From Candidatus Woesearchaeota archaeon (GTDB taxonomy: Archaea > Nanobdellota > Nanobdellia > Woesearchaeales > WJIZ01), in the NCBI GenBank assembly GCA_018221205.1, contig JAAOYF010000028.1, forward strand, positions 1 to 53,216: a DNA stretch of 53,216 bases, read 5' to 3'. Position 1 is the first letter of the stretch; each line of letters begins with the position of its first letter. A model generated the notes under the pieces. That model made no database searches. It saw only the letters and a list, made by a program, of their open reading frames with translations, and was not told the DNA's origin. Below, piece by piece: positions 5,528 to 26,872 of this stretch. The translations under genes were made by a program, and so were the position numbers.

Positions 5528-5659
5528 TCAGTCAAAATCTAAAAATAATTCGTCCATCTCATGATGTGAGACGATCTTCTTGTTCAAGACAGCCATCTTC
5601 GGCTTCTTGCCGTGGGTTCCACGGACCATATCAAATTCAAATTCATCTTCTGGCATCAT
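5528..5659 (-). CDS. Small acidic protein (43 residues), third gene of small-protein operon
   Basis: Reads MMPEDEFEFDMVRGTHGKK, then a lysine-rich middle and an acidic end (HHEMDELFLDFD). Its ATG overlaps the stop codon of the upstream 66-residue gene, and GGGTGGG 1-7 nt before the start serves as ribosome binding site, so translation is coupled. No family recognised. Because the three small genes are tightly packed and have sensible overlaps, I take them as one operon of interacting small proteins (inference). Confidence 0.6.
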   Translation of the reverse strand: MMPEDEFEFDMVRGTHGKKPKMAVLNKKIVSHHEMDELFLDFD

Positions 5660-5856
5660 TCCCACCCAACTACTTGCTCTCTGATCGACAGGCGTTCAAC
5701 CTGCGCCAGTCTCCGCTCCAATTCCTTGATCCTGATAGATTGCTCCTTGACGCGGACGTTCAGATTCCTCATCTGGTTCCAGCTATCATATTTCATAAAA
5801 TCGATATCTCTCCTCACTTGAGCAAAAGAGTTCTGAAGCTTTCTCTGTGAAATCAT
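5656..5856 (-). CDS. Small coiled-coil protein (66 residues)
   Basis: Starts MISQRKLQNSFAQVRRDI and continues as a heptad-patterned helix (L, V, I, L spacing through about residues 35-58) ending VVGWE. It looks like a short coiled-coil oligomerisation or partner-binding protein. It begins directly after the stop of the 42-residue gene (no spacer) and its stop overlaps the start of the 43-residue gene. Similar short coiled-coil proteins occur in DPANN genomes; function unknown. Confidence 0.65.
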   Translation of the reverse strand: MISQRKLQNSFAQVRRDIDFMKYDSWNQMRNLNVRVKEQSIRIKELERRLAQVERLSIREQVVGWE

Positions 5857-5985
5857 TTAGACAACCTCCAAGTTCTCATAGTATTCTTTTCTGTGCATCT
5901 CTTTCTCTATCAAACGGGCTCTTTCCTCTTTAGTGAGGCTTCTTCCAGCCACTTTCTCGTCCATGAGTTTTTCTGTCAATGCCAT
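5857..5985 (-). CDS. Small charged protein (42 residues), first gene of small-protein operon
   Basis: Reads MALTEKLMDEKVAGRSLTKE and then an Arg/Glu-rich helix ending EYYENLEVV. Its stop is directly followed by the ATG of the 66-residue gene. The reading frame is open for about 32 more codons upstream with protein-like sequence but no ATG, GTG or TTG, so either the start is non-standard or the upstream frame is open by chance. No obvious ribosome binding site precedes the ATG. Function unknown. Confidence 0.55.
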   Translation of the reverse strand: MALTEKLMDEKVAGRSLTKEERARLIEKEMHRKEYYENLEVV

Positions 5986-6087
5986 TTTGAAAAAAGTGCC
6001 CAGGGCAATTTCGAGGGGATGAAGAAGAAAGTACCCCGGACTCTTAGTGTTATTACTGGAAAGTAGAAATCAGGTCATATATAAATG
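5986..6087 (-). promoter_or_regulatory. Promoter and about 70-nt leader of the small-protein operon
   Basis: On the minus strand a TATA box CATTTATATATG lies at 6087-6076, predicting transcription start near 6055 and a leader of about 70 nt, unusual beside the leaderless neighbours. The leader holds a CGGGG/CCCCTCG pairing (around 6037 and 6015) and the palindrome GCCCTGGGC near 6000, so it may fold. No riboswitch class recognised. Confidence 0.4.
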
Positions 6088-6136: not shown

Positions 6137-6673
6137 TTACCCTACCCTTCTAACTGGCGCTTCTCGGGGCATATCACTAATTCCGTAAGTCTTCACGGTG
6201 CTTTCTCGGAAATAATTGCCGATAATATGGATGAGATCAGGTGTTGTTAGGATAACAACCTCACGGGTAGTAATGTCGGGTTCGACTTCTGCCAAGCCCT
6301 CAAGAATCTCCCTTCTTACATCATCTTCAGTGTGATATGCATCATCCATTCTCGCTGCTTTTCTCAGCTGCATCAACGTCGCGAGAGCAACAACAGGACG
6401 ATATATCCCTTGTTCAGACGTACCTAATGCAACAATTCTATCAACATATTTTGATCGTCCTTGATCATCTCTCGGGAAGTCTCCAATTTGATGATCTGCA
6501 TAACCATGCATATAATCTGCAAGGAAGAAAGGATTGTCATACCTCCTTATATCCCTGGCCAAAGATTTTTTGAGTGCTTCGGGAAGATCATTTGCAACCA
6601 AATACACAACTCGGTCTATTGTAGAATCAGAAGGTGCTCCTCTCACGCGCTCTGCTAGTGCAGTCTCTGGCAT
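6137..6673 (-). CDS. Hypothetical protein (178 residues)
   Basis: A soluble, mixed-charge protein starting MPETALAERVRGAPSD with no membrane segment or cysteine. It looks mostly helical in the first two-thirds and has a possible strand region near T-R-E-V-V-I-L-T-T-P. No family recognised. A TATA-like TTTAAATAC lies about 28 nt upstream on the minus strand (around 6700-6708), fitting a leaderless mRNA. Flanked by rnp4 upstream and the small-protein operon downstream, each with its own promoter. Confidence 0.6.
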   Translation of the reverse strand: MPETALAERVRGAPSDSTIDRVVYLVANDLPEALKKSLARDIRRYDNPFFLADYMHGYADHQIGDFPRDDQGRSKYVDRIVALGTSEQGIYRPVVALATLMQLRKAARMDDAYHTEDDVRREILEGLAEVEPDITTREVVILTTPDLIHIIGNYFRESTVKTYGISDMPREAPVRRVG

Positions 6674-10260: not shown

Positions 10261-10370
10261 AAAAAGGCCTTCAGCGAAAGATAGAGAATGATCATGAAAC
10301 CGATGAAGACCGTTATTTCTGAGGAAAGCCTTGCGAAATGAAGCAGCCTGACGTAGGATTCATTCTTCAA
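10257..10370 (-). CDS. Small one-helix membrane protein at the end of ATPase operon 1
   Basis: 37 residues if started at [23 protein letters not shown] followed by a hydrophobic helix (VFIGFMIILYLSL) and a short K-A-F-F end. It overlaps the last 11 nt of the D-subunit gene, so translation would be coupled. The reading frame closes exactly 4 nt into the convergent VTT gene. No Vma21 or subunit e match is claimed. The same arrangement (D gene, then a tiny one-helix protein) occurs at the end of ATPase operon 2, which supports it being real. Confidence 0.5.
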   Translation of the reverse strand: MKNESYVRLLHFARLSSEITVFIGFMIILYLSLKAFF

Positions 10371-10962
10371 CCTTGATCACCTTCAATCTTGAGAACTCTT
10401 CTCTGGCGCGCTCTTCTAATCTGAAAGATATCCTTTTTGCTGTTTTCTTCAATCTGGGTAGGGTATGAAATTCTAAAGAGTTCACTCTTCTCTTTGTCTT
10501 CTGGATATGGTCTGCAAGCTTCTTCAGTTTGAGCTGCTTCTCGGCGAGAGTCATGATACTGGGGAATAACGCACGGTATTTGACCAATGCATTATCTAAT
10601 TCTACACTTTGGTCGAAATAACCAGGCCATTGATATTTCACCTCTAATTTGTCTATCTTCGGCACGGTGACACCCATGATCTTCTCCTGGGAGATATGAA
10701 AGGTAGAGTCTTCAGCCAACCCTAAAGAAAGGCGGTCGATATCGACCCTTCCTTCAATCGCGATGGCGTTGTATAAAGAAGCACGGGCTTTTCCCAGCTC
10801 TCCTGCGATCTTTCCCCTGGCCTCTTTGATCTCTTTCAGGACTTTGAAGAATTCCATGATCAATGCATCTCTTTTCTGCTTGAGGAGCTTATGGCCGCGG
10901 TCTGCCATATCGATCCTTTTCCTTGTCTTCAGCAATTCCATCCGGGTCGGTTTAGTTTGCAT
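10360..10962 (-). CDS. atpD: A/V-type ATPase subunit D, operon 1 (central stalk)
   Basis: 200 residues. Subunit D is the antiparallel coiled-coil axle that rotates inside the A3B3 head. The characteristic beginning [12 protein letters not shown] and [15 protein letters not shown] are visible, as is the C-terminal [16 protein letters not shown] motif. The start overlaps the B gene end by 11 nt. The paralogue at 18810 is the D subunit of operon 2. Confidence 0.95.
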
Positions 10963-12322
10963 AGTACTTCTCGATGAATTCTTTGGAGATCCTCTTCAAT
11001 TCTTCTTTGGGCAAGGTAGAAAGAAGCTGCCAGGCTTTTTTCAACGACTCCTCTATAGGGCGATCCTCATCATAGCTCTGATTGATGAATTCATGCTCGA
11101 ATGTATCGGCGAAATCAAGATACTTCAAGTCGAGCTCTGTCAAGGATTCTTTTCCTATGACAGCAACCAAATCTCTTAGCGAGCGGCCGCGGGCATAGCC
11201 AGCATATAGTTGATTGGACACATCTGCATGGTCCTCTCTTGTATGGCCTTTGCCTATTCCATGGGCCATCAATCTTGATAATGAAGGAAGTACATCATTC
11301 GGCGGATAGATCCCTTTATGCTGCATATCCCTGGAAAGGACAAACTGGCCCTCTGTGATATAGCCTGTCAGATCCGGAATGGGGTGGGTTATGTCATCAT
11401 CAGGCATGGATATGATGGGCACCTGGGTGAGAGAGCCTTTTCTTCCTTTAATGCGGCCGGCCCTTTCGTATAATGACGCAAGATCAGTGTACATGTATCC
11501 TGGATAGCCCCTTCTTCCTGGAATCTCATTCCTTGCTGCAGAGACCTCTCTCAGCGCTTCACAATAATTTGTCATATCAGTCAGGATAGCGAGAACATGC
11601 ATGTCTTTCTCGAACGCGAGATATTCGGCAGCACTCAACGCAATCCTCGGAGTGATTATCCTCTCGATAGCAGGATGATTTGCGAGATTGAGGAACAAGA
11701 TAGTATTCTGCAACGCGCCAGATTCCCTGAACTCATTCCTGAAGAACTGGGCCTCTTCGTGCGTTATGCCCATGGCCACAAACACCACAGCGAAATTCTC
11801 CTCTTTCGCAAGGACTTTTGCCTGTTTGACTATCTGAGCAGCAATCTTATTATGAGGAAGGCCTGCGCCTGAGAAAATGGGCAATTTCTGACCTCTTACG
11901 AGTGTGTTCATCAGATCTAAAGCAGATATTCCTGTCTGGATGAATTCTTTTGGATATTCTCTCCTGAACGGATTGATCGCAAGACCGTTGACATCGATAC
12001 GTTTCTCCGGGATGATATCTGGCTGGCCGTCAATCGGCTCGCCAAGACCATTGAACATCCTTCCTAACATCTCAGGACTGACATTCAGCTTCATCGTATC
12101 TGCGGTGAAGCGTACCCTGGTCTTGAGGGTGTCAATTCCAGAGGTGCCCTGAAAGATCTGCACCACAGCTTTTCCTTTCTCTACTTGCAAGACCTGGCCG
12201 AGCCGTCTTTGATCATCGGCAGTGATGATCTCAACAATCTCGCCGAATGCAACATCCTCTATGCCTTCGACTACGATGAGCGGGCCTTTCACATCGGTAA
12301 CAGAGCTATATTCCTTTATCAT
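10952..12322 (-). CDS. atpB: A/V-type ATPase subunit B, operon 1
   Basis: 456 residues, the non-catalytic nucleotide-interface subunit of the A3B3 head. Conserved: the N-terminal K-G-P-L-I-V-V-E barrel, [16 protein letters not shown] (the degenerate P-loop region typical of B) near 147, and [15 protein letters not shown] near 270, with the interface Arg usually found downstream in S-L-S-R-L-M (visible). Starts overlap the A gene end by 17 nt. It is about 30 residues shorter at the C-terminus than the operon 2 copy. Confidence 0.96.
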
Positions 12323-13979
12323 ATTTCATCCTAGCTAATTTTTCATCCATCTTCGGATCCTTCAATTCTGACAGTTTCTTTCCTTGCTTGATATCTTTCA
12401 TCAGCTTTTCATGATATTCTAAGATCTCTTTCAGCATAAAGAACTGCTTTTTCGGAGCGCAATAGGAGTCTACTTTATCATAGGCATTCTGCTGCAGGAA
12501 ATCCTCTCTCAGTCTTTTTGTTGTGTCTAAGACGAGCTTGTCCTCTTCTGGAAGAGCATCTGGGCCGACCAATTGCACAATCTCCTGCAATTCTTCTTCT
12601 TTCTGAAGAAGGGCAAAGGCTTTCTCCCGTAGCTCTGGGAATTGCGGATCCACCTTAAGATAGAACTCTTTTACATCGTCGGCATATAGTGAATACGAGG
12701 TGAGCCAGTTGACAGCTGGAAAATGCCTTTGATATGCGAGAGGTGCGTCCAGTCCCCAGAAGACTTTTGTTATTCTCAGCGTATTTTGGGTAACGGGCTC
12801 TGAGAAGTCGCCTCCAGGGGGAGAGACAGCACCAATAACAGAGATAGAGCTTTCAGCATCATTAAGGGTGAGCACATTTCCTGCACGTTCATAGAACTCA
12901 GCAAGTTTCGAAGACAGGTAGGCAGGATAGCCTTCCTCTCCTGGCATCTCCTCCAATCGTGAAGAGATCTCTCTCAATGCTTCAGCCCATCTTGAGGTTG
13001 AATCTGCCATCAACGCCACATTGAAACCTTGGTCGCGAAAATACTCTGCAATCGTTATTCCAGTATAGATAGAGGCTTCTCTTGCTGCTACAGGCATATT
13101 TGAGGTGTTGGCGATCAAAACTGTTCTTTCCATCAATGGCTTATTGGTGCGGGGATCCATCAATCTTGGAAAATCATTCAGCACTTCTGTCATCTCATTT
13201 CCTCGTTCGCCGCAGCCGATATAGACGACAATATCTGCATCAACCCATTTTGCCAGCTGATGCTGGGATATGGTCTTTCCTGCTCCAAAAGGACCGGGAA
13301 TACAGGCTGTTCCGCCTTTTGCCAATGGGAAGAACGTATCAAATACCCTTTGTCCTGAAATCAATGGCTGTGAAGGGGTGAGCTTCTTCTTGATCGGTCT
13401 TGGTACTCGGACAGGCCAGCTCTGGCTCAAGGTTATCTCCTCTATACCCTTCTTTGTCTCTATTTTCGCAACAACACTCTCTGCCCTATGCACACCTTCA
13501 TAGATCTCTATCAATCTGCCTTCTTTGTCCGGAGGCACCATTATCTTATGCTGGATCAGCTCGGTTTCAGGAACGTGACCAATGACCTGACCAGGTAAAA
13601 GTGGGGTGCCCGGATGGACATTGGCCTTAAATTCAAATTCCTGTTCCTTGCTTAAGGAAGATGCTTCTATACCACGCTCAATAAAATCTCCAGACTGCGT
13701 AGCGAGATAGGGCAGAGGTCTGCCAATACCGTCGAGAATGCTGCCTAATAAGCCTGGGCCAAGATCGATGCTCAAGGGCAACCCTGTTGTCTCGATCTTC
13801 TCATCCGGTTTCAAACCTGTTGTATCTTCATAGACCTGTATAACCGCTAAGTCTCCTTTCAATTGGATGATCTCTCCAATCAGACCTTCTTCTCCTACTT
13901 TGACTACATCAAACATCCTAGAACCTTTCATGCCTTCCCCTATCACAACAGGTCCGGAAATCTTGTTGATGAATCCCAT
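12306..13979 (-). CDS. atpA: A/V-type ATPase catalytic subunit A, operon 1
   Basis: 557 residues. Catalytic ATP-binding subunit. Walker A G-P-F-G-A-G-K-T is near residue 229, the catalytic Glu motif G-C-G-E-R-G-N-E near 256, and the bulge ('non-homologous') region specific to A-type subunits spans about residues 115-190. All residues needed for ATP turnover appear present. Its start touches the F gene stop and its end overlaps B. No intein is present, although A subunits sometimes carry one. Confidence 0.97.
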
Positions 13980-14257
13980 CAGAGCTGCACTTCTCCGCCG
14001 ATGGCTTTCCTTGTTATCTCCTGCAGGTCATCTATCTTTGAAAAATCCTTCAATGTATCTGGAAATACAATGACATTCTCGTACTCTTTCAATTCAGGAA
14101 CAAGATCCATGATATCTACAGTGGCTATGATAAAGGCATCTTTGTCCATCTTCTTGAGCAATGAGATCGCCTGCACTCTTGAGGAGACGGCATGGCTGTT
14201 CTTTATGCCTGCCAGTCTCAATCCGAGGGCGAACTCCTCATTCGCCAAGACGATCAT
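13979..14257 (-). CDS. atpF: A/V-type ATPase subunit F, operon 1
   Basis: 92 residues. Small central-stalk regulator that binds D. The N-terminal pattern [10 protein letters not shown] matches the F-subunit signature (G-F-x-L-A-G), followed by alternating beta-alpha elements as in its Rossmann-like fold. Overlaps C by 4 nt (ATGA) and touches A. Divergent from the operon 2 copy (104 residues), consistent with separate assembly of the two machines. Confidence 0.88.
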
Positions 14258-15318
14258 ATGACCATCTCCTTCAGTTCTTTCTTATCGAGCTGTGCTGTAA
14301 TGCCTTTTGCGATGATGAGCAGATTGCGGAATTCCATCCTTTTCTTTGTGAGATAGGAGACCAACGGATAGGGGCCGATAGGATGTGAGAGATCTTCCTT
14401 CGAGACACTCGTTAAAAACCACCTATGCAGTTCCTGTTCGAAGCTGTAGAAATTGTCTGTCTTGTTGTATTTGGCCAAGGCGTTCTGCAGCGGCTGTTCT
14501 AATTCAGTAGACTCGAACGCATTGACGAATTCTTCCATGGTCTTCGCGTTGATCGCTTTTTCCTTCAGGGGAGAGTCAAGCTGCACTTTTTTCTGGATCT
14601 CTTTTTGTTTTCGTATCTTGCATTTCAAGAGCATGAGGATATTCTTGATGAGTTTTCTTTTTGCGAATATTCCTGCGATATGGTCCCTATCAGCGACCCT
14701 TAGTCCAGAGAGCGACTCATCAATGCCCTTCATCACTGTCTCTTCTAATGCAAGATCAAATTCCTCTATTGAGCTGATCTTCTGGTCGAAGATCTTTTCA
14801 TATTCGGTATTGTGCAAGACCAGCTGCACATCTGCAAGAGTCTTTGTCTGATGAAGCCTTGTCAGCAGCACTGGATTGATCGATCCTATGGGCTCGACTA
14901 AACTCTTGTCTAGGTGGGTATTGGAGAATCGGGATCGGAAGAATGTCTTTAAGATGCGGCCTTCATAGATCTTGTCATAAGCATCAAATACGGGCTGGAA
15001 CTTTTTCGGAGAAAGATTTTTTGTGTTCTGGATGGATTGGATGAATCCCTGCTCTACAGCCATAGAGAATTCCAGCAGGCTTTTCTTGTTGATTGTCCTG
15101 AGGAACTCCTGGGAATCAGTATTGTTCAGCTTAGCGACCAATTCAGGCAAGGAATCGCACTCTGCAAGTTTAAGGCATGCGTCATGATCCAGAACAGCAC
15201 GTGATATGATCCTTGCGTTGGCATAGAGGAAAGAGCTCTGGCTGGCATTCTTATACAGGACAATACCTAGCGCAGCACCGGTAACTGCTGTTATGCCTAA
15301 TGCGAGCTCAGCTACCAT
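14254..15318 (-). CDS. atpC: A/V-type ATPase subunit C, operon 1
   Basis: 354 residues. Subunit C (the V-ATPase d homologue) is the funnel-shaped adaptor that joins the central stalk to the K ring. The sequence is all-helical, with the threefold pseudo-repeat suggested by spaced F-x-x-A-x-E and F-R-x-L motifs and the conserved R-N-L-L-I-I-A-K-G end. The first 20 residues are hydrophobic, an unusual addition absent from the operon 2 copy. Position between E and F supports the call. Confidence 0.88.
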   Translation of the reverse strand: MVAELALGITAVTGAALGIVLYKNASQSSFLYANARIISRAVLDHDACLKLAECDSLPELVAKLNNTDSQEFLRTINKKSLLEFSMAVEQGFIQSIQNTKNLSPKKFQPVFDAYDKIYEGRILKTFFRSRFSNTHLDKSLVEPIGSINPVLLTRLHQTKTLADVQLVLHNTEYEKIFDQKISSIEEFDLALEETVMKGIDESLSGLRVADRDHIAGIFAKRKLIKNILMLLKCKIRKQKEIQKKVQLDSPLKEKAINAKTMEEFVNAFESTELEQPLQNALAKYNKTDNFYSFEQELHRWFLTSVSKEDLSHPIGPYPLVSYLTKKRMEFRNLLIIAKGITAQLDKKELKEMVI

Positions 15319-15844
15319 AGAATAACCTCCTCGCTATCTTATTTCTCAGCTCTTGCTTCTGTGCTTCAAGGAATCTCGTAAAGGTGAAATCCAATGTCAA
15401 TGTATCTTTCTCAATGGTGATCCCGTTTATGCTGGTGTCAATCTGTATATCTGGAAATAAACCCCTATATTCTTCGAACGTCCCCCTCACCTTGCCTTCT
15501 CCAGATGATCTCTTGACCCGTTCAATATATTCTGGATTCTTCAGCACTTGTCCGGATCGTTCTTCGGCCTGTTTGAAGGCTTCAATGAGCAGATCTTCCC
15601 TTTTCTGCTCATATTCCTTTTTCGCATGCAGCACCTCGTCAGCCATAGTAGAGGTATAGACTTTCTTCTCTTCATTGATCATCTCAGATTCTTTCTTTCT
15701 TAACGCGATGTCGTGGTCTGAGTCGATAGACAAGCGGTCTTTGGTGAAAAGCTCAAGCTGCTCTTTCTCGAAATCATCAAGAAGCTTCTGATAGTGCTTC
15801 TTGAGCTCCTCTCTGAGCAGTTCAAGATTTCCAGCAGTGTTCAT
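15308..15844 (-). CDS. atpE: A/V-type ATPase subunit E, operon 1
   Basis: 178 residues. Peripheral-stalk subunit: a long charged N-terminal helix (about 1-105) that pairs with subunit H to form the stator coiled coil, and a mixed C-terminal domain that holds the top of the A3B3 head. Order K-E-C and length match the family. Overlaps C by 11 nt and K by 4 nt. Confidence 0.88.
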   Translation of the reverse strand: MNTAGNLELLREELKKHYQKLLDDFEKEQLELFTKDRLSIDSDHDIALRKKESEMINEEKKVYTSTMADEVLHAKKEYEQKREDLLIEAFKQAEERSGQVLKNPEYIERVKRSSGEGKVRGTFEEYRGLFPDIQIDTSINGITIEKDTLTLDFTFTRFLEAQKQELRNKIARRLFYGS

Positions 15845-16323
15845 CCCAACACTCCAAGACCTACGACAAGCAAGATCAATGAGACGATAAAGCCGAAGAT
15901 AGCTGGCGTTTCACACTGGCCGCCAAAGATCAAGCTTGGCGCAAAGGCATCTGGATTCTTTGCGGAGCTCACTATCCCTGATGCAGCCACTGTTCCCTGG
16001 AAGATGGCAGAGATGCCTGTTATGGCGACTATGGCTCCTGCGCCGAACATCGCCAATCCTTGAAGGGTGGTGAGACTCTTGACACTGCCGCCGAGCAGAC
16101 CCGCACCCATGAGGATCAAGAGTGCGGTGATGAACGCATACACCGTCTGTGTCTGCGGCAGGGCCTGTAGGATCAAAGCTGAACGGAAGTTCTCTTTTTT
16201 TTCTGCGACCGCGCCGGTTCCTGCCAAGCCTGCAGTCTTCAATCCGAAGACTGTACTCAGACCTGCCACTCCCATTGCTAAAGCTGCTCCTGAAATTGCC
16301 CAAATTGTACCTTCAGTTACCAT
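15841..16323 (-). CDS. atpK: A/V-type ATPase rotor subunit K, double hairpin, Na+-type (operon 1)
   Basis: 160 residues, four membrane helices in two hairpins, resembling Enterococcus hirae NtpK. The second hairpin has the ion-carrying Glu138 (C-E-T-P-A-I-F-G-F) and Gln109 (F-Q-G-T-V-A-A-S-G) 29 residues before it, exactly as E139/Q110 in NtpK. The first hairpin has L55-P-Q-T58-Q59-T-V-Y62, matching NtpK L61, T64, Q65 and Y68, and no carboxylate. All NtpK Na+ ligands are therefore present. One carboxylate per four helices halves the ions moved per turn, which favours ATP-driven pumping over ATP synthesis. The Na+ reading is inference from residue identity recalled for NtpK. Confidence 0.93.
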   Translation of the reverse strand: MVTEGTIWAISGAALAMGVAGLSTVFGLKTAGLAGTGAVAEKKENFRSALILQALPQTQTVYAFITALLILMGAGLLGGSVKSLTTLQGLAMFGAGAIVAITGISAIFQGTVAASGIVSSAKNPDAFAPSLIFGGQCETPAIFGFIVSLILLVVGLGVLG

Positions 16324-18202
16324 TTTCTATACCTCCGAATGGAACATATTTTTTTCCTTGTCCTTCATAGAATTTTGAGAAAAACTCAAGAAAGTGAAGC
16401 CTGATGGAGTGAACAAATGCACCTAAGCCATTCATCGCCAGATTGAAGAGATGGCCTATGATGAACACCATAGGGGCAGCTATCTTCCCTACAAAAGGAA
16501 TGCCCCATACCATCAGCGTCATGAAATTTACCGCTAATGCGATGCCTGCAGTCCCTACAGCAAGTGCCATCAATCTGCCATAGGAGAATAAATCTCCTAT
16601 GAAGCCAGTGAAATTGAACACTGATAAGAGAGAGGGAACAACTCCTGCTTCGTCATAGGTGAGACCTACCTGGAATACGAGCGAGAGCAAGAGCAAGCTG
16701 TAGCCGAATACAGGAATCTGCAGCACAAACATGATCAAAGAGAAGAGGAATAGAATCCACACCCCCTGCTTATGCAATGCGTCTTTGACTTTCTTCTTCT
16801 TCATATTTTCAAAAAAACCTACTGCCAATCCGGTGAAGAGATGGATTGCGCCAAGAGCAATTGCAATAACCAAGATGGTCGTGATGCTTCCCAACGAATC
16901 AAGGAGTTGAGGGACATTAAATCCTACTCGTTGAAAGAAATCTCCGAAATAGGAGCCGAAAAAACTTCCTAAGACAGCAGTAAAGATACCGAATGTTGTC
17001 AGGATGAGGCCGATATCTTTTGTTCTTCTATCATAGCTTCCTTTTCCCCTTATCAGGAGGAGGCCCAAGGCCAATAGGACGAAGCCATAGACGACATCAG
17101 TCAGCATGAAGCCGAAGAAGAATGAAAAGGTGATGGCAAGTATCGGAGTCGGGTCGATGTCCTTATAGCGGGGCAGGGAATAGAGTTCAGTGAACAGCTC
17201 GAACGGCTTGATGATCCTTGGATTTTTCAGCAGCGTAGGAGCATCTTCTGCTTCTTCATAGCTCAGATGGAACCCTTTGGCCTCTCGTCCGATGACATAT
17301 TCGAATTCATCCTTGTTCTTTTCAGGGAGCCAGCAGTCCAGTACAGAGAAAGATTCGGCTCCTTTGAGCATCTCTAAGGCAGTTATCTTCTCCTTCCAGA
17401 TATTCAACTCTTTCAGGAACGAATCGAGCAGGCGATGATTGGCCACAAAGAGACGGTATTGATCTTTCATTATCCTGTTTTCCTCTTGCAAGAGCTTCAG
17501 ATTCTCATCTTTTAATGTCTTTATTCTCAGATGAGGAAGGATACCTTCTTTCGACAATTGCAAGGCATCAAAACCGACAGTATGCAGGCCTGATTCGATC
17601 TTCTGCGCATCCTCATGCAGGCAGACGACAATAAGCAGGCAGACCTTCTCATCAATGGGTTTGGTGAGTATGATGGCTCTTTCCAATGATAGGCGATGTT
17701 GAGCTGAGTAGGAGATTATTCCGGCGAATTTCCTGAAAAACTGTGAATCTGCCAGCGCATCTAGCTTGATATCAGGCAGATATCTCAGATTCTCTATCTC
17801 ATAATCGTTCTTGTTCCTGTTTTCCTGGATAGCCTTGACCCTCTGTGCATTCTTTTTAACACGGTCTTCCATAGTATCGAGAATATCTGTTATTTCCCCG
17901 AACAATTCCTCTTTTTTCAGCTGGGCGACACTTTTCAGCGTGGTCTTTTTTGAGAAGAGGTCCTTGAAGAAATTCTTGGGGGTCGCTTTGCTATACTGGC
18001 CAAGGGTCTCTTTGAGGAATTTGACGCGGGCATAGAGGTTGATAGTCTGCTGCTCGTCTTCATCAAGGCTCTGCTCATCCAGATTCACTTCTGATTTTGT
18101 TAGTTGGCAGATGCCCTGCTTGTATAATGCAGAGATGACCTCTTGAGCATGGTCTTTAGGCAGAATCACTGAAGTCCTCACTATCTTTTCTGGCTTAAAC
18201 AT
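16313..18202 (-). CDS. atpI: A/V-type ATPase subunit I (a), operon 1
   Basis: 629 residues. Stator membrane subunit that forms the ion half-channels. The N-terminal about 330 residues are soluble and coiled (binding the peripheral stalks); the rest has seven to eight membrane helices starting with P-T-P-I-L-A-I-T-F-S-F-F-F-G. The two arginines expected to face the rotor carboxylate are seen in S-Y-G-R-L-M-A-L and H-S-I-R-L-H-F-L-E-F-F-S-K-F-Y. The ATG overlaps the H gene by 8 nt. Confidence 0.95.
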   Translation of the reverse strand: MFKPEKIVRTSVILPKDHAQEVISALYKQGICQLTKSEVNLDEQSLDEDEQQTINLYARVKFLKETLGQYSKATPKNFFKDLFSKKTTLKSVAQLKKEELFGEITDILDTMEDRVKKNAQRVKAIQENRNKNDYEIENLRYLPDIKLDALADSQFFRKFAGIISYSAQHRLSLERAIILTKPIDEKVCLLIVVCLHEDAQKIESGLHTVGFDALQLSKEGILPHLRIKTLKDENLKLLQEENRIMKDQYRLFVANHRLLDSFLKELNIWKEKITALEMLKGAESFSVLDCWLPEKNKDEFEYVIGREAKGFHLSYEEAEDAPTLLKNPRIIKPFELFTELYSLPRYKDIDPTPILAITFSFFFGFMLTDVVYGFVLLALGLLLIRGKGSYDRRTKDIGLILTTFGIFTAVLGSFFGSYFGDFFQRVGFNVPQLLDSLGSITTILVIAIALGAIHLFTGLAVGFFENMKKKKVKDALHKQGVWILFLFSLIMFVLQIPVFGYSLLLLSLVFQVGLTYDEAGVVPSLLSVFNFTGFIGDLFSYGRLMALAVGTAGIALAVNFMTLMVWGIPFVGKIAAPMVFIIGHLFNLAMNGLGAFVHSIRLHFLEFFSKFYEGQGKKYVPFGGIENGN

Positions 18203-18509
18203 TTTTCAGAAACTCCTCAAAGATGATATTGATGGCATCATTAATCCTGTTTTTGACAGCATCAAGCTGGTGTATCTTCTCGCTATAGGACTGTCTCAAT
18301 GAAGATGCTTCTTTCTTTGCCTCTTCCTGGGCTTTTTTCACCAGATTATGTTTGTAAGAGGATAGTTCAAAGAGCTCCATATGGTTCTTATCAAGAAGCT
18401 CTTTCTTCTGCTGCGAGAGGATATCTAGAAAGACCCTTTTTTTCTGCTCAAACGCTGACTCTTGACTCTTCTCGAAGAGTTGTAGCTCTTCCAGTACTGA
18501 AATGTCCAT
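18195..18509 (-). CDS. atpH: A/V-type ATPase subunit H, operon 1
   Basis: 104 residues, almost entirely a charged coiled-coil helix rich in Gln, Lys and Glu, ending in a shorter amphipathic segment. This is the peripheral-stalk partner of subunit E. It is first in the operon and has the strong ribosome binding site AGGGGTGACG. Assigned from position and coiled-coil character more than from sequence motifs, which are weak in this family. Confidence 0.82.
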   Translation of the reverse strand: MDISVLEELQLFEKSQESAFEQKKRVFLDILSQQKKELLDKNHMELFELSSYKHNLVKKAQEEAKKEASSLRQSYSEKIHQLDAVKNRINDAINIIFEEFLKNV

Positions 18510-18675: not shown

Positions 18676-18813
18676 TTATAAGAACTTTTTAAAGAATACG
18701 ACGATTAAGGTAACGAACAAGGCAAGAACAACAGCATTTATCAATGCGACAATCAGCCAGAATTTAGTTGACGGCTTCTTTAGCCAATTCTTGAATCTTT
18801 TCCAGCGCTTCAT
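18676..18813 (-). CDS. Small one-helix membrane protein at the end of ATPase operon 2
   Basis: 45 residues. MKRWKRFKNWLKKPSTK is a strongly basic head, followed by one membrane helix of about 24 residues (FWLIVALINAVVLALFVTLIVVFF) ending K-K-F-L; the positive ends suggest the N-terminus stays inside. Its ATG overlaps the stop of the D gene (ATGA), so it is translationally coupled to the ATPase. No family recognised. Together with the similar tiny ORF after operon 1 it suggests an unnamed accessory or assembly subunit. Confidence 0.7.
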   Translation of the reverse strand: MKRWKRFKNWLKKPSTKFWLIVALINAVVLALFVTLIVVFFKKFL

Positions 18814-19427
18814 GTTTTTTTCTTTATGCGCTTCATCCTGAAGACATTCTCTCTTTCTGCCTCTTCTAGGCGGAGCTGGATAAAAGAGGAGGTCTTCTCC
18901 ATACGCGGGATGACTTCAAACTCGAGTGCATTCACCCTTCTTTTTGTCTTTTCGATCTCTCTCAACAGCTTTCTCATACCAGTCTCGACTTCTGCAGCCT
19001 TGATGATCTTCTCGACGACCTTCTCATAGCCGGATGCTGCCTCATCCACTGCAGCTGAGCTGTATAGGCCATATCCCCTTTTCAGGGTTGATTTCTGCAC
19101 TTCAATCTCACCGATATTCGGCACTAAAACTCCCATGATGTTCTTTGTGCCTATCTCGACTTCAGGAGATTTGGAAACAGCCAAGGCAATCGACTTTATC
19201 TTGAGATCAGATTCGAGCAGGCGGGCCATATTCATCTTGTCAAGAGCACTTTTGTACTCCTCGACAATCTCCCCTCTCAGATTCTTCACTTCTTTGAGGA
19301 TGTCAAAGAAATCCAAGATGAGGCCGTCACGCTTTTTCTTCAGGAGATTATACCCGGATTTAGCCAGCTTGATCTTCTTCTTCAATTCCATCAATTCCGA
19401 TCTTGTCGGTTTGACGTTCTGGGTCAT
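18810..19427 (-). CDS. atpD: A/V-type ATPase subunit D, operon 2 (central stalk)
   Basis: 205 residues, central rotor axle of the second ATPase. Conserved P-T-R-S-E-L-M-E-L-K-K-K-I, N-L-L-K-K-K-R-D-G-L-I-L-D-F-F and K-T-K-R-R-V-N-A-L-E-F-E-V-I-P-R segments. Clearly paralogous to the D at 10360 but with many differences. Touches the B stop (1-nt overlap) and overlaps the small membrane gene. Confidence 0.95.
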   Translation of the reverse strand: MTQNVKPTRSELMELKKKIKLAKSGYNLLKKKRDGLILDFFDILKEVKNLRGEIVEEYKSALDKMNMARLLESDLKIKSIALAVSKSPEVEIGTKNIMGVLVPNIGEIEVQKSTLKRGYGLYSSAAVDEAASGYEKVVEKIIKAAEVETGMRKLLREIEKTKRRVNALEFEVIPRMEKTSSFIQLRLEEAERENVFRMKRIKKKT

Positions 19428-20890
19428 TACGCTACCTCTTTCTTCAAGTCGTCTTCATCGACGCCGCCTTCAAGGGGTTTTTTGTATTTGGGTGTTGTCT
19501 TTCCTGATCCTGCTATTTTTTCTACATGATCTTTGTAGTACTTCTTCTTCAGGTCTGGGGAGATCCTTGTCAATTCATCCGGTGGAATCATGCCAAAAAG
19601 CTTCCAGCCCATATTCAAGGTTGTGGTTATTGTCCTGTCTTCATCTTTTGACTGGGTCACGAACACTTTCTCGAACTCTTCTGCGAATTTCAAAAGCCGC
19701 TTATCTCTTGCTGACAATGCTTCTTCACCGACGATGGCCACTAGCCCTCTTAAGTCCCGGCCTTCTGCATAACCTGCATAGAGCTGGTCTGAGACTGATT
19801 TATGGTCATCTCTTGTTTTCTTCGGACCTATACCAAGGTTCATCAGCCGTGATAATGACGGCAAGACATCAACCGGAGGATATATCCCTTTTCTGTGCAG
19901 CTCTCGGCTCAGGACAATCTGGCCCTCAGTGATATATCCTGTCAGGTCGGGAATAGGATGTGTAATATCATCTCCGATCATGGTCAAGATAGGGAACTGA
20001 GTGATAGACCCCTTTTTGCCCTTGATGACTCCTGCCCTTTCATAGATAGAAGCCAAGTCAGTATACATGTATCCTGGATAGCCTCTTCGTCCTGGAACTT
20101 CTTCTCGTGCTGCTCCGATCTCTCGCAATGACTCACAATAGTTTGTCATATCGGTCAGGACAACCAAGACGTGATAGCCTTTCTCGAATGCAATGTATTC
20201 TGCAGCAGTCAAGGCCATCTTTGGTGTAACTAGTCTTTCGACAGCAGGATCATCTGCTAAGTTCAAGAAGATGATTGCTTTAGACAATGCACCTGTCCTC
20301 TCGAAATCTGCGATGAAGTATTGAGCTTCTTCATTTGTTATACCCATAGCTGCGAAGACAACGATGAACTTTTCTCCTTCTCCAAGCACCTTGGCCTGTC
20401 GGGCAATCTGCAATGCCATCTCACTATGAGGCAAACCAGAGCCTGAGAAAATAGGCAGTTTCTGCCCTCTTACGAGGGTATTTGTCGCGTCAATTGTTGA
20501 GATGCCTGTCTGGATAAAGTCTGCAGGAGTGTCTCTTGCGTATGGATTGATGGCTGCTCCGATGATATCCATCTTCTGCTCTGGAATTATGGGGGCCTTT
20601 CCATCAATGGGCTTTCCAGCGCCGTTGAAGACTCTTCCTAACATATCTCCAGAAACACCCAATTTAAGGGTCTCGCCAAGGAACTTCACTTTCGCCCCTT
20701 TTCCGATTCCTGATGTGCCCTCGAAGATCTGGACAACGACGAGATCATCAGAGGTATCAAGGACCTGTCCTGTCTTGACCTCTCCTGAATCCAGCTTGAT
20801 GCTGACGATATCAGCATATCCTATGGGCTCTGTCTTCTCTACGAAAATCAGAGGACCGGCGACTTTGGTTATTGTTTTATATTCTTTCAT
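19427..20890 (-). CDS. atpB: A/V-type ATPase subunit B, operon 2
   Basis: 487 residues from the ATG at 20890. I prefer it to the GTG 9 nt upstream because AGGGTGAT forms a ribosome binding site for the ATG and that GTG is part of it. Same landmarks as the other [39 protein letters not shown] and S-L-S-R-L-M. A charged tail of about 30 residues ([14 protein letters not shown]) follows the usual end and is missing from the operon 1 copy; it could control pairing of the right D or F. Confidence 0.96.
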
Positions 20891-20895
20891 TATAA

Positions 20896-22626
20896 TCACC
20901 CTAGTGCTGCGAACTCTTTTGTCATACTTTTTTCAGCGTCCGTCAGGATCTTCTGATAGTCCTTATCGAACTTTGAGTTCACAATCTCGTTCTTTGACTT
21001 CACTTCAAGGATCTTCTGGATTCTCATCCCTTTGCCCAGGGCTTCCTGTCCAAGGTCCCTATATTTGAGAATAGTCTTCATGATCGCTCTTGTTTTCTTC
21101 AGATCGCAGAACGTATCAACTGCGTGGAACGCGTTCTGCTGCAGGAAAAATTCTCTGATCATCCTGGCAACCTCTAAGGTCAGCTGCTCTCTGTCAGGCA
21201 GGGCATCGGATCCTACTAACTGTACGATCTGAAGCAGTTTCTCTTCTTCCTGCAAGATGCTCATGAACTCGGTCTGGAGCTTCTTAAAATCCTTTCCGAC
21301 ATTCTCTGCAAACCAGGGCTCTAGTGCGTCTCGATATAGTGAATACGAGGTGAGCCAATTGATACTGGGGAAATGTCTTCTTTGGGCGAGCTTTGCGTCC
21401 AATGCCCAGAACGCCTTGGTGACCCTTAGGGTATTCTGAGTAACGGGCTCTGAGAAGTCGCCTCCTGGGGGAGAGACAGCTCCGATAAGTGTTACAGATC
21501 CTTCTTTCTTCTTTCCTTTCGGAATGGCCCTTCCTGCCCGTTCGTAGAACTGCGCAAGTCTTGTTGCGAGATATGCAGGGTAGCCTTCTTCACCAGGCAT
21601 CTCTTCCAGCCTTGAGGAGATCTCTCTCATGGCTTCAGCCCATCTTGAGGTTGAATCTGCCATCATAGCAACACTGTAACCCATATCCCTAAAGTATTCT
21701 GCTATCGTTACTCCAGTATAAACAGATGCTTCTCTTGCTGCTACTGGCATATTTGAGGTGTTCGCAATGAGGACTGTCCGATTCATGAGTGCTTTTCCGG
21801 ATTTTGGATCAATAAGTGCTGGGAATTCTTTCAGAACCTCTGTCATCTCATTTCCTCGTTCGCCGCAACCGACATAGACGACGATATCTGCGTCAGCCCA
21901 TTTAGCCAATGTCTGCTGAGCAACGGTTTTTCCTGCTCCGAACGGACCTGGAATGGCTGCTACCCCTCCTTTTGCTAGCGGGAAGAGTGCGTCGAAGATC
22001 CTTTGTCCTGTTATCAATGGAACAGTCGGATTGAGTTTCTTTCCAACAGGCCGCGCTTTTCTGACAGGCCAGAGCTGCTTCATCTTTAAGATAGTGCCGT
22101 CATCCAATTTTCCGACAGGTTCGTCAACAGTATATTTACCTGAGGATATCTCCTTGATCTTTCCTTCCTTGTCAAGAGGGACCATGATGCTGTGCATGAT
22201 TCCAGGTGTCTCTTCGACTTCGCCGATAACTTGGCCAGGCTTTACTGCATCACCTTTCTTCACTTTGGCCTTGAAATCCCACTTTTTCTTTGGGTCCAAG
22301 CCTGGAGCTTCGAGGCCGCGGAAGATATAATCTCCCTGTTCCTGCTGAAGCACAGGCAGCGGTCTCTGGATTCCGTCGTAGATGCTCGTCAATAATCCGG
22401 GACCGAGTTCGATGCTCAGCGGCTTTTTTGTATTAATGACCGGCTCGCCAGGCTGCAGGGCAGAGGTATCTTCATAGACCTGGATGATGATCTTATCCCC
22501 ATCTATCTGGATGACCTCACCCATGAGCTTTTCATTGCCTACTTTCACGAGATCGTACATGTTTGCACTGATTCCTTTTGCGACCACGACTGGGCCAGCA
22601 ATCCTATATAAAACACCTTTTTCCAT
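20896..22626 (-). CDS. atpA: A/V-type ATPase catalytic subunit A, operon 2
   Basis: 576 residues. Walker A G-P-F-G-A-G-K-T near residue 229, G-C-G-E-R-G-N-E near 256, and the A-type bulge region at about 115-190. Full catalytic equipment, so both machines in the window should hydrolyse or make ATP. Shares its first base with the F stop and ends 5 nt before the B start. It has about 20 extra residues at the C-terminus relative to the operon 1 A subunit. Confidence 0.97.
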
Positions 22627-22940
22627 TATGATTCACCTTTCCATAGATCTACTCCTATAGATTTGATTATCAATTTGCGGATATTGTCTCCGCCTGCATC
22701 TTTTGAGAGTGAGATGAAGACCGGATCAACAGAGTCTTCGATGTCTGAGCGGTCTTGGGATTCCAATTTTTGCAAAACGCTTTCGTCGACAATGATGATG
22801 CCTACTTCTTTATTCTCTTTCAGCTGATACATCTTATCTAAAATATCTTTCTTGTCTTCTGTGTTGACCGACATCCTGATGCCTGCCAATTGGAATCCTA
22901 GCGTGAATGCCTCTGTCCCTATGCACGCCACTTTCTTCAT
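22626..22940 (-). CDS. atpF: A/V-type ATPase subunit F, operon 2
   Basis: 104 residues. N-terminal signature [13 protein letters not shown], then strands and helices including [10 protein letters not shown]. Central-stalk subunit bound to D. Overlaps C by 4 nt. The C-terminal 35 residues, thought to extend upward as a brake in some A-type enzymes, are longer than in the operon 1 copy. Confidence 0.9.
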
Positions 22941-23965
22941 GCGATCACCAACGGCTCTACTTTTTCCATATCCATGCCGAAATTCTTGGCTTTGACGATG
23001 CTCTTGATATTCCGTATCTCGATCTCTTTTGCGAACAGATAGCTCAAGATGACATTGACTGAGAGAGGATTCTGATGCTGGAAGAGAAGTGTTTTCCTGA
23101 AGAGATACTGGTTCAACGCTATTTCCAAGGGAATCAATGAAGATTCGTCAATCTCTTTTATCGGATAAGGAGATTTTGCGATCAACCTATGGATCTCTTC
23201 TTTTGTTTTTGCTTTGAGCAATGATCTCATAAAGACATTGTCTGATCTGTCGAGAGTGAAGAAAATATGCTTCTTAATCTCATCGCTTGCAAAGTTTTCT
23301 TTCTTCAGTCTGAAAAATGTCAATAAATTCGTTGTCTGGATAATGCTCACTAAGAATTCTCTGAACAATTTTCCCTGCCGGGGAATGTTCTTCGCGAAAT
23401 CGAGGAGAGTTCTGAAATAAAAATGATCCAATGCAGTCTCGACATCTACCAATTGCTTTGAGGGCAGCTCTTTGTATCTAAGATAAAATTCATTCAGAGG
23501 AGGTTTCGCTGATTTGAACATCTCCTCATTCTCTTTTTTTCTCATCAGGTCCAGGTCTTGCTCGGACAGCAATCCTATGGGCAAGAGCAATGCTTTCAGC
23601 TCTTCATCAGGAAGATCAATGGCCTTTGCCCGCAATACCACTTTGATATTGTCGATGTCAAATTTGAGAAGATAGGCATCGATGACATCATTGAAATAAT
23701 CCGGAGAAATCCTCTTTAGCTTGGCAATGGTGTGCTTGAAATTCTTGTTCAGGGCCTGTTCTATGAGCTCAAGGCCAGAATACCTCACGCCAAGTTCATT
23801 CATCTCCTTACTGTACTGCGTCTCTCCAAGATAATTGGAGATCTCTGCAAGAGACATCTTCATGAGTTTCTTATAATCTGCTTTAGGTATGAGTAATGTG
23901 CGCATCACCGCGGTCCTCACATAGGTGTAAGGACTTTCCCATAACCTCATCTTACCTTTTTTCAT
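22937..23965 (-). CDS. atpC: A/V-type ATPase subunit C, operon 2
   Basis: 342 residues. Characteristic subunit C beginning Y-T-Y-V-R-T-A-V-M-R-T-L-L-I-P and end E-I-E-I-R-N-I-K-S-I-V-K-A-K-N-F-G. All-helical collar linking the K ring to the DF shaft. Overlaps E by 4 nt. It lacks the hydrophobic N-terminal extension of the operon 1 paralogue. Confidence 0.93.
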   Translation of the reverse strand: MKKGKMRLWESPYTYVRTAVMRTLLIPKADYKKLMKMSLAEISNYLGETQYSKEMNELGVRYSGLELIEQALNKNFKHTIAKLKRISPDYFNDVIDAYLLKFDIDNIKVVLRAKAIDLPDEELKALLLPIGLLSEQDLDLMRKKENEEMFKSAKPPLNEFYLRYKELPSKQLVDVETALDHFYFRTLLDFAKNIPRQGKLFREFLVSIIQTTNLLTFFRLKKENFASDEIKKHIFFTLDRSDNVFMRSLLKAKTKEEIHRLIAKSPYPIKEIDESSLIPLEIALNQYLFRKTLLFQHQNPLSVNVILSYLFAKEIEIRNIKSIVKAKNFGMDMEKVEPLVIA

Positions 23966-24495
23966 CTGAACAACTCTTGTGCTATCTCCTGCAGATATTT
24001 TTCTTTGATACCTCCAACCACTGTATCAAAAGAATAATTTATGCTGACACTGCCATCACTGTTCTCAGAGATCAATCCACCATCTATATCTCCAACTGTT
24101 GCTTTAACTCCTTTGAGGAATTTCGCGTCCTGCTTGTTGCAGTATACCCGAGCTATCTTCATCTGTCTCTGAGCTTTCTTGAGGATGCTCTTCAGATAGG
24201 ATTCTCTCTTTTTTGAAAGTTCCTTCTTCGCTTCCTGAATGGCTTCTTCAATCAACTCCCGTTTCTTCTCGAGCACAAGATGGGCAGCCTCTCCTTGAGA
24301 CTCCGCCTCCTTGATCTGCATTCTGCGCTCCTTCTCTTCTTCAAGAGAATTCTGCAGATGCTTTTTCTTCTCCTGCACGAAATCCTTGAGTTCCTGCTCC
24401 AGTTGCTGTAGTTTGTTTCTGGTTTCTGTCTCTATCTGAGCGATCTCTCTGTCTCTACTCTGTTCGATATCCTTCTTGATTTCTTCAAGTCCCAT
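23962..24495 (-). CDS. atpE: A/V-type ATPase subunit E, operon 2
   Basis: 177 residues. Long charged coiled-coil N-terminal half (E-x-Q-R-D-R-E-I-A-Q-I pattern) and a folded C-terminal half with the D-x-D-x-x-D/G-G-L-I-S-E-N-S-D-G region typical of E. Peripheral stalk with H. Separated from K by 2 nt. Confidence 0.92.
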   Translation of the reverse strand: MGLEEIKKDIEQSRDREIAQIETETRNKLQQLEQELKDFVQEKKKHLQNSLEEEKERRMQIKEAESQGEAAHLVLEKKRELIEEAIQEAKKELSKKRESYLKSILKKAQRQMKIARVYCNKQDAKFLKGVKATVGDIDGGLISENSDGSVSINYSFDTVVGGIKEKYLQEIAQELFR

Positions 24496-24497
24496 GC

Positions 24498-24743
24498 TTA
24501 TCCAGCCATACCGATGATCAAAATGGCGATAACAAGTCCGAAGATAACGATTGTCTCTGGAATAACGGTCAAGATAAGACCTTTTCCGAACAACTCTTCT
24601 TTCTCTGCCATTGCACCTATAGCTGCGGTACCAATTCCTTTTTCAGCCCATGCTGCTGCAAAAGCTGATGCACTGATAGCGATGCCTGCTGCGAGAGCAA
24701 TCATCCCTGTACTTCCATTTGTTATTGCGGCTCCAACTGCCAT
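24498..24743 (-). CDS. atpK: A/V-type ATPase rotor subunit K, single hairpin with two carboxylates (operon 2)
   Basis: 81 residues, two membrane helices. The ion-carrying Glu63 is in I-P-E-T-I-V-I-F-G-L. Exactly 29 residues before it, where Na+-type rings have Gln, is Glu34 (A-W-A-E-K-G-I-G), so two carboxylates could face each other in the ion site. The T-Q-x-x-Y part of the Na+ signature is absent (P-E-T-I instead). One ion site per hairpin gives a high ion-to-ATP ratio, suited to ATP synthesis. A two-carboxylate site is known from the Na+-driven c-ring of Fusobacterium nucleatum, so ion type here is open. Confidence 0.95.
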   Translation of the reverse strand: MAVGAAITNGSTGMIALAAGIAISASAFAAAWAEKGIGTAAIGAMAEKEELFGKGLILTVIPETIVIFGLVIAILIIGMAG

Positions 24744-24746
24744 GTT

Positions 24747-26558
24747 TTATCCCTCCTTATAGCCAAACGGCTTAAATCTTATTCCGCCTCCTTTGTAGAA
24801 CTTACTGAACAGTTCCACATAGTGGAGTCGTAATGAGTGTAAAAAGCTTCCTAACATTCCTATCCCTATGTTGATGATATGGCCGACAATCAATAGGAGT
24901 GCACCCCAGACATAGCCAAGGCCTCCAGCTGCGAACAGCGGCGCGGCCTGGTCGTTGATGACCAATGCTAATCCTACTGAACTTAATCCAATTGCCATTA
25001 ATCTTAGATAACTAAGGATGTTGCCGAAGATGCTCGGAATCTCCACCAATCCTCTCACTCCTTCTCCTTTGTAGAGCATGAAGAGTGATAGTGCAAGGAC
25101 GATCCAGCCCACTATGGGCAAGAGCAGGATGACTTTTGTATAAGATAATGCGAGCAGTGCTACTGAGGCCTGCAGGAATATCCAGCCGAACTTCTCGTAA
25201 AATGCTGTCATGAAACCATGTGCCCTGAATTCATTGATGAAGCCAGCGATCAAACCAGCATTCACATGGATAACGCCTGCAAAAAGTGCAGCGATCATCA
25301 AAGGCTCCAATGCGTGATGAGGATTTCTGCTGATCAAGGGATGCCAAAATTCATAGCCGAAAAATTCTCCAAAGATCAATCCGAAAAATATCGTGCCGAA
25401 TGAGGCAAAGATGAGGATATTGAAAAATCTCTTGAATTGAGGCATGGCTTTCTTCATAAACCAAAATAGTACCAGTGTAGTAAGGCCGTAGCCATAATCT
25501 CCGAGCATGAACCCGAACAATAACGGGAAGGTGATGAACATGAACCACGTAGGATCTATCTCCTTGTACTTCGGCAGGGTATAAAGGTCGAGGAAAAACT
25601 GGAAGCTATTGACGCCCTTCTGATTCTCGAGCTCTATCGGTACTTTGTCTTTCTTGTCTATTGCATGGATCTCGACAACGAGCCTATCATTCGCAGCGTT
25701 TCTCAGTTCTTTTATCGAATGCTCGATATCTTCTTTCGGGACAAAACCCCAGACAACAAATGCTTTGTCTGTCTCCTGGAATCTTAATGGTGCTTCAGCT
25801 TTCTCAAGCTCATTGCTTAGGAGGAACTCATAATCAGGCAGCTTCTTCGCATATTCTTTCTTCAGATTTATGCGTTTTCTTCCGATACCCTTAAGATTGG
25901 ACTGCGCTTTTGCCACTGTCTCTTTTATCCTCTTCTCAGAGCTTTGTTTCATATCTGAGAAATCGATGGAGATGAAATCATGGGCAGTGAGCATGGATTT
26001 TGCAGAATCAAAGAAAGAACTGTCGATGAACAGGGCAATGACAGCTTTCTTTTCAATGATCGCCTTTCTCAATGAATACTTTGTCGTCTTTTCTTTCAGC
26101 TTTGCTTCGAAAGCCTCGATGTTTTTGATGAAGCCGACAGTATAGGAGAGGGTGCTGTATTCCTGAAATGCATCCAGATCAAGCTTCAATGCTTTGAGGA
26201 TCTTTGCCTTTTCGAGATGGTCCTGCTGCTTTCTCAGGATATCGTTGCTTTCTTTCTCCTCATCGGCTATTTTGATGAGCTTTTGAGCGAGAGCTTCGAT
26301 CTCTTTGGCGATCCCCTTCACTGATCCCTTCTGGGCAGCATGCTCTTTTCTGAGCGGGATATTGAATTTTGAGGCAATAGCACGGATCTTTACCAAGGTA
26401 GAAGAAAGAAGCTCTGCATCGGGCAAGGATGAGCCTTTCTCTGCCTCATTCTGGCCTTCTACGATATGGAGGATCTTCAGTTCCTGCAGCCTGGCGATTA
26501 TCTTCGGCATGACAGCCTTCGAGCCTACCAGACGTAATTTAGTCATGTCATTAATCAT
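24747..26558 (-). CDS. atpI: A/V-type ATPase subunit I (a), operon 2
   Basis: 603 residues. Soluble N-terminal half with coiled coils, then membrane helices from P-T-W-F-M-F-I-T-F-P-L-L-F-G-F-M-L-G-D onward. Rotor-facing arginines visible in L-S-Y-L-R-L-M-A-I and H-S-L-R-L-H-Y-V-E-L-F-S-K-F-Y. Start overlaps H by 4 nt (ATGA). It is 26 residues shorter than the operon 1 copy, mainly in the soluble part. Confidence 0.95.
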   Translation of the reverse strand: MINDMTKLRLVGSKAVMPKIIARLQELKILHIVEGQNEAEKGSSLPDAELLSSTLVKIRAIASKFNIPLRKEHAAQKGSVKGIAKEIEALAQKLIKIADEEKESNDILRKQQDHLEKAKILKALKLDLDAFQEYSTLSYTVGFIKNIEAFEAKLKEKTTKYSLRKAIIEKKAVIALFIDSSFFDSAKSMLTAHDFISIDFSDMKQSSEKRIKETVAKAQSNLKGIGRKRINLKKEYAKKLPDYEFLLSNELEKAEAPLRFQETDKAFVVWGFVPKEDIEHSIKELRNAANDRLVVEIHAIDKKDKVPIELENQKGVNSFQFFLDLYTLPKYKEIDPTWFMFITFPLLFGFMLGDYGYGLTTLVLFWFMKKAMPQFKRFFNILIFASFGTIFFGLIFGEFFGYEFWHPLISRNPHHALEPLMIAALFAGVIHVNAGLIAGFINEFRAHGFMTAFYEKFGWIFLQASVALLALSYTKVILLLPIVGWIVLALSLFMLYKGEGVRGLVEIPSIFGNILSYLRLMAIGLSSVGLALVINDQAAPLFAAGGLGYVWGALLLIVGHIINIGIGMLGSFLHSLRLHYVELFSKFYKGGGIRFKPFGYKEG

Positions 26559-26872
26559 TTTATCTCTTCTTCAAATTTCTGTACTACAAGAGAAACCGCT
26601 TTTTGCATGTTCTTCCTGGTATCCCGTTCTAGGGCCTGAGCTTCACTCTTTCCCTTAGCAAGGCTTTTTTCCTTGATCTTTTCCATCTCTTTGTCATACT
26701 GCTCTAATGTCTGAGCATGCTCTTTGTCTAATCTTTCCTCTTCCATCTGTTTCTGTCCTTGGATCTTATCAGAAATCTCTCTCAGTCTCAGCTCTGCTTT
26801 TTTTCTTGCCTGCTCAACCTTTTTCTTGGCATCAGTCTCTGCAAGCTTGATTTTTTTCAGGATTGCATCCAT
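26555..26872 (-). CDS. atpH: A/V-type ATPase subunit H, operon 2
   Basis: 105 residues, a continuous charged coiled coil (K-K-V-E-Q-A-R-K-K-A-E-L-R-L) with a short end segment Q-K-A-V-S-L-V-V-Q-K-F. Peripheral-stalk partner of E; first gene of operon 2. Ribosome binding site GGAAGGGTGG lies just upstream. Confidence 0.86.
   Translation of the reverse strand: MDAILKKIKLAETDAKKKVEQARKKAELRLREISDKIQGQKQMEEERLDKEHAQTLEQYDKEMEKIKEKSLAKGKSEAQALERDTRKNMQKAVSLVVQKFEEEIK

Follow-up and report, generated by a model that had tools for sequence, protein, structure and literature searches.

The leader of a minus-strand operon of three small-protein genes was found to carry a conserved C-rich-loop hairpin, here called P2, which may work as a conditional attenuator of the operon (probability roughly 0.45). 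Comparison between genomes showed the leader to be, as judged from the sequences, a structured RNA untranslated in any conserved frame. The leader probably represents a regulatory RNA not described before, having a conserved fold and occurring before the third gene of the operon (gene 3) across families and elsewhere as a free-standing element. A broader proposal appears unlikely: that this is a class of undescribed regulatory RNAs of about 70-100 nt in Woesearchaeota-type archaea, existing in some families as a gene for a small RNA and in others as the attenuating leader of the small-protein operon, with one promoter giving both the small RNA and the read-through mRNA. Members of the proposed class often include a 5' hairpin and always the C-rich-loop hairpin.

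The window, i.e. the whole analysed stretch of 53,216 nucleotides, is contig C2 of genome G000 (1.28 Mb, 74 contigs), the genome of a tiny uncultured archaeon of Woesearchaeota type. The minus-strand operon was confirmed to include three genes of 42, 66 and 43 codons: gene 1 (5985-5857, minus strand), which is sporadic, gene 2 (5856-5656, minus), which encodes a single long helix, and gene 3 (5659-5528, minus), which encodes a small protein conserved in the order. The TAA of gene 1 is followed immediately, with no spacer, by the ATG of gene 2, and the TGA of gene 2 and the ATG of gene 3 overlap as ATGA. The coordinates and junctions thus bear out the operon of tiny abutting or overlapping genes described in the initial annotation.

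The promoter (6092-6078, minus) is composed of a BRE-like CGAAACA (6092-6086) and the TATA box TTTATATA (6085-6078), and it was aligned in eight genomes. The pattern GAAANNTTTAWATA matches it without mismatch, and when at most one mismatch was allowed the pattern had seven matches in the window against 1.17 expected. At the expected transcription start, placed by the usual spacing between a TATA box and its start site, lies the palindrome TACTNNNNAGTA (6054-6065, minus), which could be an operator or a start-site element. This is the single match in the window, yet 24 of 100 shuffles also contained one; the longer pattern TACTNNNNAGTAAYRACA is present at the leader in six of the seven genomes of family f1, to which the window genome belongs.

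Behind the BRE/TATA promoter the window has a long hairpin with the C-rich loop AUCCCCUC, followed by U6. The P2 element supported by fold, covariation and model matches covers positions 5989-6044 (minus), its outer stem pairs 6041-6034 with 6005-5998 (minus), its conserved C-rich loop motif CATCCCCTC is at 6021-6013 (minus), and the U-run TTTTTT (5990-5995, minus) ends four bases before the ATG of gene 1. At the nucleotide level, conservation in family f1 covers the promoter, a AGTAATGACA-like box and P2. The outer stem has the form GUCYGGGG/CCCCRGAC around the C-rich loop, and five of the seven f1 genomes have CAUCCCCUC as this loop.

The expectation that the leader can fold was confirmed: its 63-nt core reached -19.8 kcal/mol (z -3.16), which none of 200 shuffles equalled, and the 78-nt stretch including the start of gene 1 had a z-score of -2.10, with six of 200 shuffles as good. 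When nine leaders were folded singly, the z-scores were -1.67 (G003), -2.29 (G001) and between -3.08 and -5.13 for the other seven; along with G003, the fold was also weak in G250 (-1.41) and G304 (-1.93).

Conserved secondary structure with compensatory changes was found for the leader. When 13 copies were aligned with MAFFT, without fitting to the structure, 94% of the 100 stem cells were paired, against at most 61% when the pairing was slid, and 12 cells had changed on both sides. Neither the pairing nor the number of both-side changes was equalled by any of 500 shuffles. Further pair types were ordinary in this alignment (176 of 500 shuffles). In the first alignment of eight rows, the both-side changes were matched by 122 of 500 shuffles, a result indecisive alone, and no covariation was found in the small 5' hairpin P1 in these eight rows. 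When 18 copies were aligned, this time fitted to the model structure, unlike the MAFFT alignment, both-side changes were present at seven of the eight pairs. Rfam 15 gave no match for the leader at the 18 loci scanned; the two matches obtained there (E 0.39 and 0.43) lay outside the leader and below the gathering score, and a second scan gave none.

Of the two options that the initial annotation had offered for the leader, the regulatory one is upheld in so far as the stretch between the TATA box and the genes contains a conserved RNA showing compensatory changes; regulation itself, whether through attenuation or through release as a small RNA, we infer. In the attenuation reading, the promoter would start the transcript near 6057-6050, and the first approximately 60 nt would form a terminator-like hairpin displaying the conserved C-rich loop, with U6 after it, immediately ahead of gene 1. 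Some of the transcripts would terminate at the U-run, with read-through into the small-protein operon decided by a factor recognising the C-rich loop. The terminated product of approximately 70 nt may also act by itself, because other families have copies of the RNA that are not linked to gene 3 and have a TATA box of their own.

The other option, a non-standard start codon for gene 1, did not hold. The frame of gene 1 is open upstream from the TGA at 6072-6070 without any ATG, GTG or TTG, so the reported absence of start codons was correct, and the open part (6069-5986, minus; not a gene) has 28 codons instead of the reported approximately 32. A translated N-terminal extension of gene 1 read from a non-standard start would account for these codons, and open frames are present also in G004, G005 and G002 (29, 48 and 32 codons). 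Of 5,000 dinucleotide shuffles of the same 84 nt, however, 28% were equally fully open and 16% both open and free of start codons, and at least 28 open upstream codons occur in three of the 51 listed genes of the window.

Neither was a conserved reading frame through the leader found among the eight genomes sharing it. The distances from the loop motif to the first start codon are 36, 35, 67, 54, 34, 37, 41 and 45 nt, with remainders modulo 3 of 0, 2, 1, 0, 1, 1, 2 and 0, so that the loop falls in all three frames (in G003 and G001 the distance was measured from the counterpart of the loop motif chosen by the analyst). The open frames of G000, G004, G005 and G002 lie in frames 0, 0, 1 and 2 relative to the conserved loop, and their peptides are dissimilar by eye. 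The ATG of G006 is immediately preceded by TAA, the leaders of G003 and G001 include stops, and the six other f1 genomes gave no match for gene 1 itself. Conservation of the upstream codons in relatives, the check proposed in advance, thus yielded the frame changes and stops that had been named as refuting a coding role. On shuffles, frames and stops together the coding reading was rejected, a translated extension being extremely improbable, and the openness of this frame is no more than chance.

The distribution of the RNA was studied with covariance models run on the 352 genomes of the order. Model R1, built of the eight leaders, matched 17 genomes at E ≤ 0.05, including the eight training genomes and nine others, and in two of these nine (G038 and G045) the blind match was located upstream of gene 3. 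The 13-row model R2 matched 58 of the 352 genomes at E ≤ 0.05, against approximately 18 chance matches expected, and its blind match in G100 lies 13 nt before a gene-3 match. With the copy of G250, which was recognised by eye, the RNA precedes gene 3 in 12 genomes of six families (G000, G001, G002, G004, G005, G006, G031, G037, G038, G045, G100 and G250), three of them found blind (G038, G045 and G100). G003 has a degraded copy by eye, and model R3 misses the copies of G003 and G001. On the 40 gene-3 genomes outside f1, R3 gave 26 matches in 15 genomes (E ≤ 0.1). The six matches at E ≤ 3.7e-6 were all gene-3 leaders and had all been among the training rows of R3, the next best having E 0.0022; a strong copy is absent from 34 of these 40 genomes in the R3 search. 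A further copy in G006 (C41, E 1.8e-4) is antisense inside a coding frame and probably due to chance, as is likewise a copy in G244.

Each of the 12 copies linked to gene 3 is preceded by a TATA box at 31-46 nt, compared with 3.1% of 20,000 random places, when the box was sought within 110 nt upstream of copies selected by gene 3. The RNA is thus situated between a promoter and a conserved gene in all 12 linked copies, with the TATA box upstream and gene 3 downstream. This bears on the reading in which P2 is simply a transcription terminator of the upstream genes, the 178-aa ORF and Rpp21. A hairpin plus a U-run would suit such a role, and C-rich-loop hairpins stand directly behind a gene at loci L077, L089 and, by eye, L082. 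In the linked copies, however, the conserved TATA box separates the upstream genes from P2, and P2 directly precedes the first ATG of the operon, which makes mere termination of the upstream genes very improbable. The hairpins in question are L077:1501-1556 and L089:463-527 (G070 and G071), directly 3' of apparently the same gene, and a similar one at L082:777-842 (minus; G241), directly behind a gene end by eye; they are perhaps a 3'-end version of the P2 motif. Locus L078 is the same site as L061.

For attenuation speaks the arrangement in the window, where the hairpin and U6 stand four bases before the ATG of gene 1; against it counts the presence of a U-run, by the analyst's rule, in only five of the 12 gene-3-linked copies. 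Weak model matches have a U-run in 12 of 14 cases, and they often have one because the models reward it. The seven linked copies without a U-run are in line with a different reading, resembling ribosomal-protein leaders, in which P2 is a protein-binding site of the mRNA and a protein on the C-rich loop, either a product of the operon or some other one, controls translation or mRNA stability without termination. The conserved loop on a covarying stem and the linkage to one gene family across six families also agree with it. The spacing between P2 and the start codon nevertheless varies, by eye from approximately 9 nt (G006) to over 25 nt (G003 and G004), and the copies of family f84 are not before gene 3; we regard this reading as rather doubtful.

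Terminator-like hairpin-U sites in three parts of the window numbered 15, 21 and 13, against 18.3, 16.6 and 9.3 expected. As this is near chance level, general use of hairpin-U terminators in G000 was rejected; the scan cannot see P2, because it limited loops to 3-8.

In five genomes of family f84 (G304, G305, G306, G307 and G308), where this is seen best, the RNA occurs away from gene 3, with a sequence-predicted TATA box of its own 55 to 69 nt upstream. In G304, G307 and G308 the copy also folds into a 5' hairpin, and a U-run is present in four of the five genomes, G305 being without one by eye. Elsewhere, G013 has two tandem hairpins before a lipoprotein-like ORF, and G264 and G165 have one hairpin each before other ORFs, the best fold of the G264 copy being without the modelled stem. 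A TATA box within 110 nt upstream was present in all six free-standing or other-gene copies and in one of 14 weak matches (that of G306), the former count not being independent because the copies were picked after their flanks had been seen. Among 371 genomes drawn from the phylum, 13 had matches at E ≤ 0.001, two of them outside the order (G364 and G493), and neither of these two has a TATA box by the rule used for the other copies.

Copies that are separate from gene 3 and have a TATA box of their own would be expected if P2 acted in trans as a small RNA, with its C-rich loop as the seed, and shared the operon promoter by happenstance. The loop also resembles the 16S tail AUCACCUC; the tail GGATCACCTCC is present in six of 15 genomes and absent in G000. 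Against this, pairing of the loop with the starts of the 51 listed window genes did not exceed that of shuffled loops: among 200 shuffles, 52% were as good when the start region was scored minus the gene body, and 21.5% with the start region alone. Anti-Shine-Dalgarno targeting was thus negative for these 51 genes, with no complementary targets beyond chance, and a purely trans-acting role seems quite unlikely.

As far as Pfam shows, and set against what is generally known of ribosomal-protein leaders, the operon differs from these in including no ribosomal protein. The leader resembles the archaeal r-leaders described for S15, eL15 and L4 in being a structured leader of a small-protein operon found by covariation, and differs from them in its structure and in having copies also away from the gene (PMC7247131). 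That source describes poly-U stretches behind some S15 leaders as possible termination signals and names S15 leaders for Halobacteria and Methanomicrobia, and DPANN, Woesearchaeota and Nanoarchaeota are absent from its main text (PMC7247131). Termination in archaea is described as directed by U-tracts, with aCPSF1 as the factor (PMC8716108). The U-run at the proposed 3' end is similar to this; unlike there, the U-run here lies in a leader and follows a conserved C-rich-loop hairpin, an arrangement that not every copy shows (PMC8716108). Among bacterial leader attenuators that also give off a small RNA, Listeria Rli51 is likewise a single 5' leader proposed as both attenuator and small RNA (PMC11394854); that RNA is bacterial and unrelated.

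In the titles and abstract beginnings of the literature on RNA regulation in these archaea, no regulatory RNA was reported from them, and neither this RNA nor the gene-3 family was described in the titles and abstract beginnings searched, a literature including few subscription papers. If the attenuation reading is true, a lineage without genetics would gain a defined RNA that is described by a covariance model, keeps a fixed partner gene and has 5' and 3' ends that can be tested. The leader also points to a small-protein family without a Pfam match, that of gene 3, which is widespread in the order.

Gene 3 was found in 129 of the 352 genomes of the order (E ≤ 0.01), many of the matches covering only approximately 17 residues around LNKK...EMDELF. 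Six positions are invariant in 22 sequences, which were picked by hand with members having long N-terminal parts omitted, and none of these 22 had a Pfam match. Its AlphaFold2 model has two short helices (pLDDT 69.9) and was left out of the fold search; the single match to a solved structure (E 0.061) was not credible. Gene-3 relatives at 12 loci in named genomes belong to Woesearchaeota or Nanoarchaeota records.

Gene 2 is present in all seven f1 genomes and weakly in G037 and G057, and AlphaFold2 predicted a helix over residues 2-65 (mean pLDDT 93.8). Genes 1 and 3 of the window had no Pfam match and gene 2 only sub-threshold ones, and in NCBIfam the matches were weak for gene 1 (E 0.25) and gene 2 (E 0.031) and lacking for gene 3.

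Gene 1 was found only in the window genome among the 60 searched. Its likely relatives are ORFs of 40 and 42 codons at the same place in G240 and G239, with 32 and 38% identity, respectively, for which eight and one of 3,000 shuffles were as good; a search with gene 1 and these two ORFs additionally detected only G134 and G207, both weakly. The short ORFs before gene 3 at L030 and L057 were rejected as relatives, 194 and 1,437 of 3,000 shuffles being equal. In the other f1 genomes gene 2 directly follows the leader, and gene 1 therefore looks like an insertion between leader and gene 2, genes 2 and 3 appearing to be the conserved cargo in f1.

Downstream of gene 3 in other families, an RIO/APH-type kinase is present at L022, L026, L027, L031, L037 and L040 (with Pfam support for L022 only), which by eye we take to be similar to Bud32, and a diphthamide synthesis gene lies near or downstream of gene 3 at L021, L018 and L036 (Pfam for L021 only). 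These neighbours give a hint that gene 3 may act close to tRNA or translation.

In the window the upstream neighbour of the operon encodes an Rpr2/Rpp21 RNase P protein, and the 178-aa ORF, located between this gene and the operon (6137-6673), has no Pfam match. The window also includes tandem paralogous A/V-type ATPase clusters on the minus strand (10360-18509 and 18810-26872), the subunits of which were named by eye, with Pfam matches for the two B-type and both K subunits. One K subunit is a double hairpin of 160 aa and the other a single hairpin of 81 aa, which suggests rotors with different ion-to-ATP ratios.
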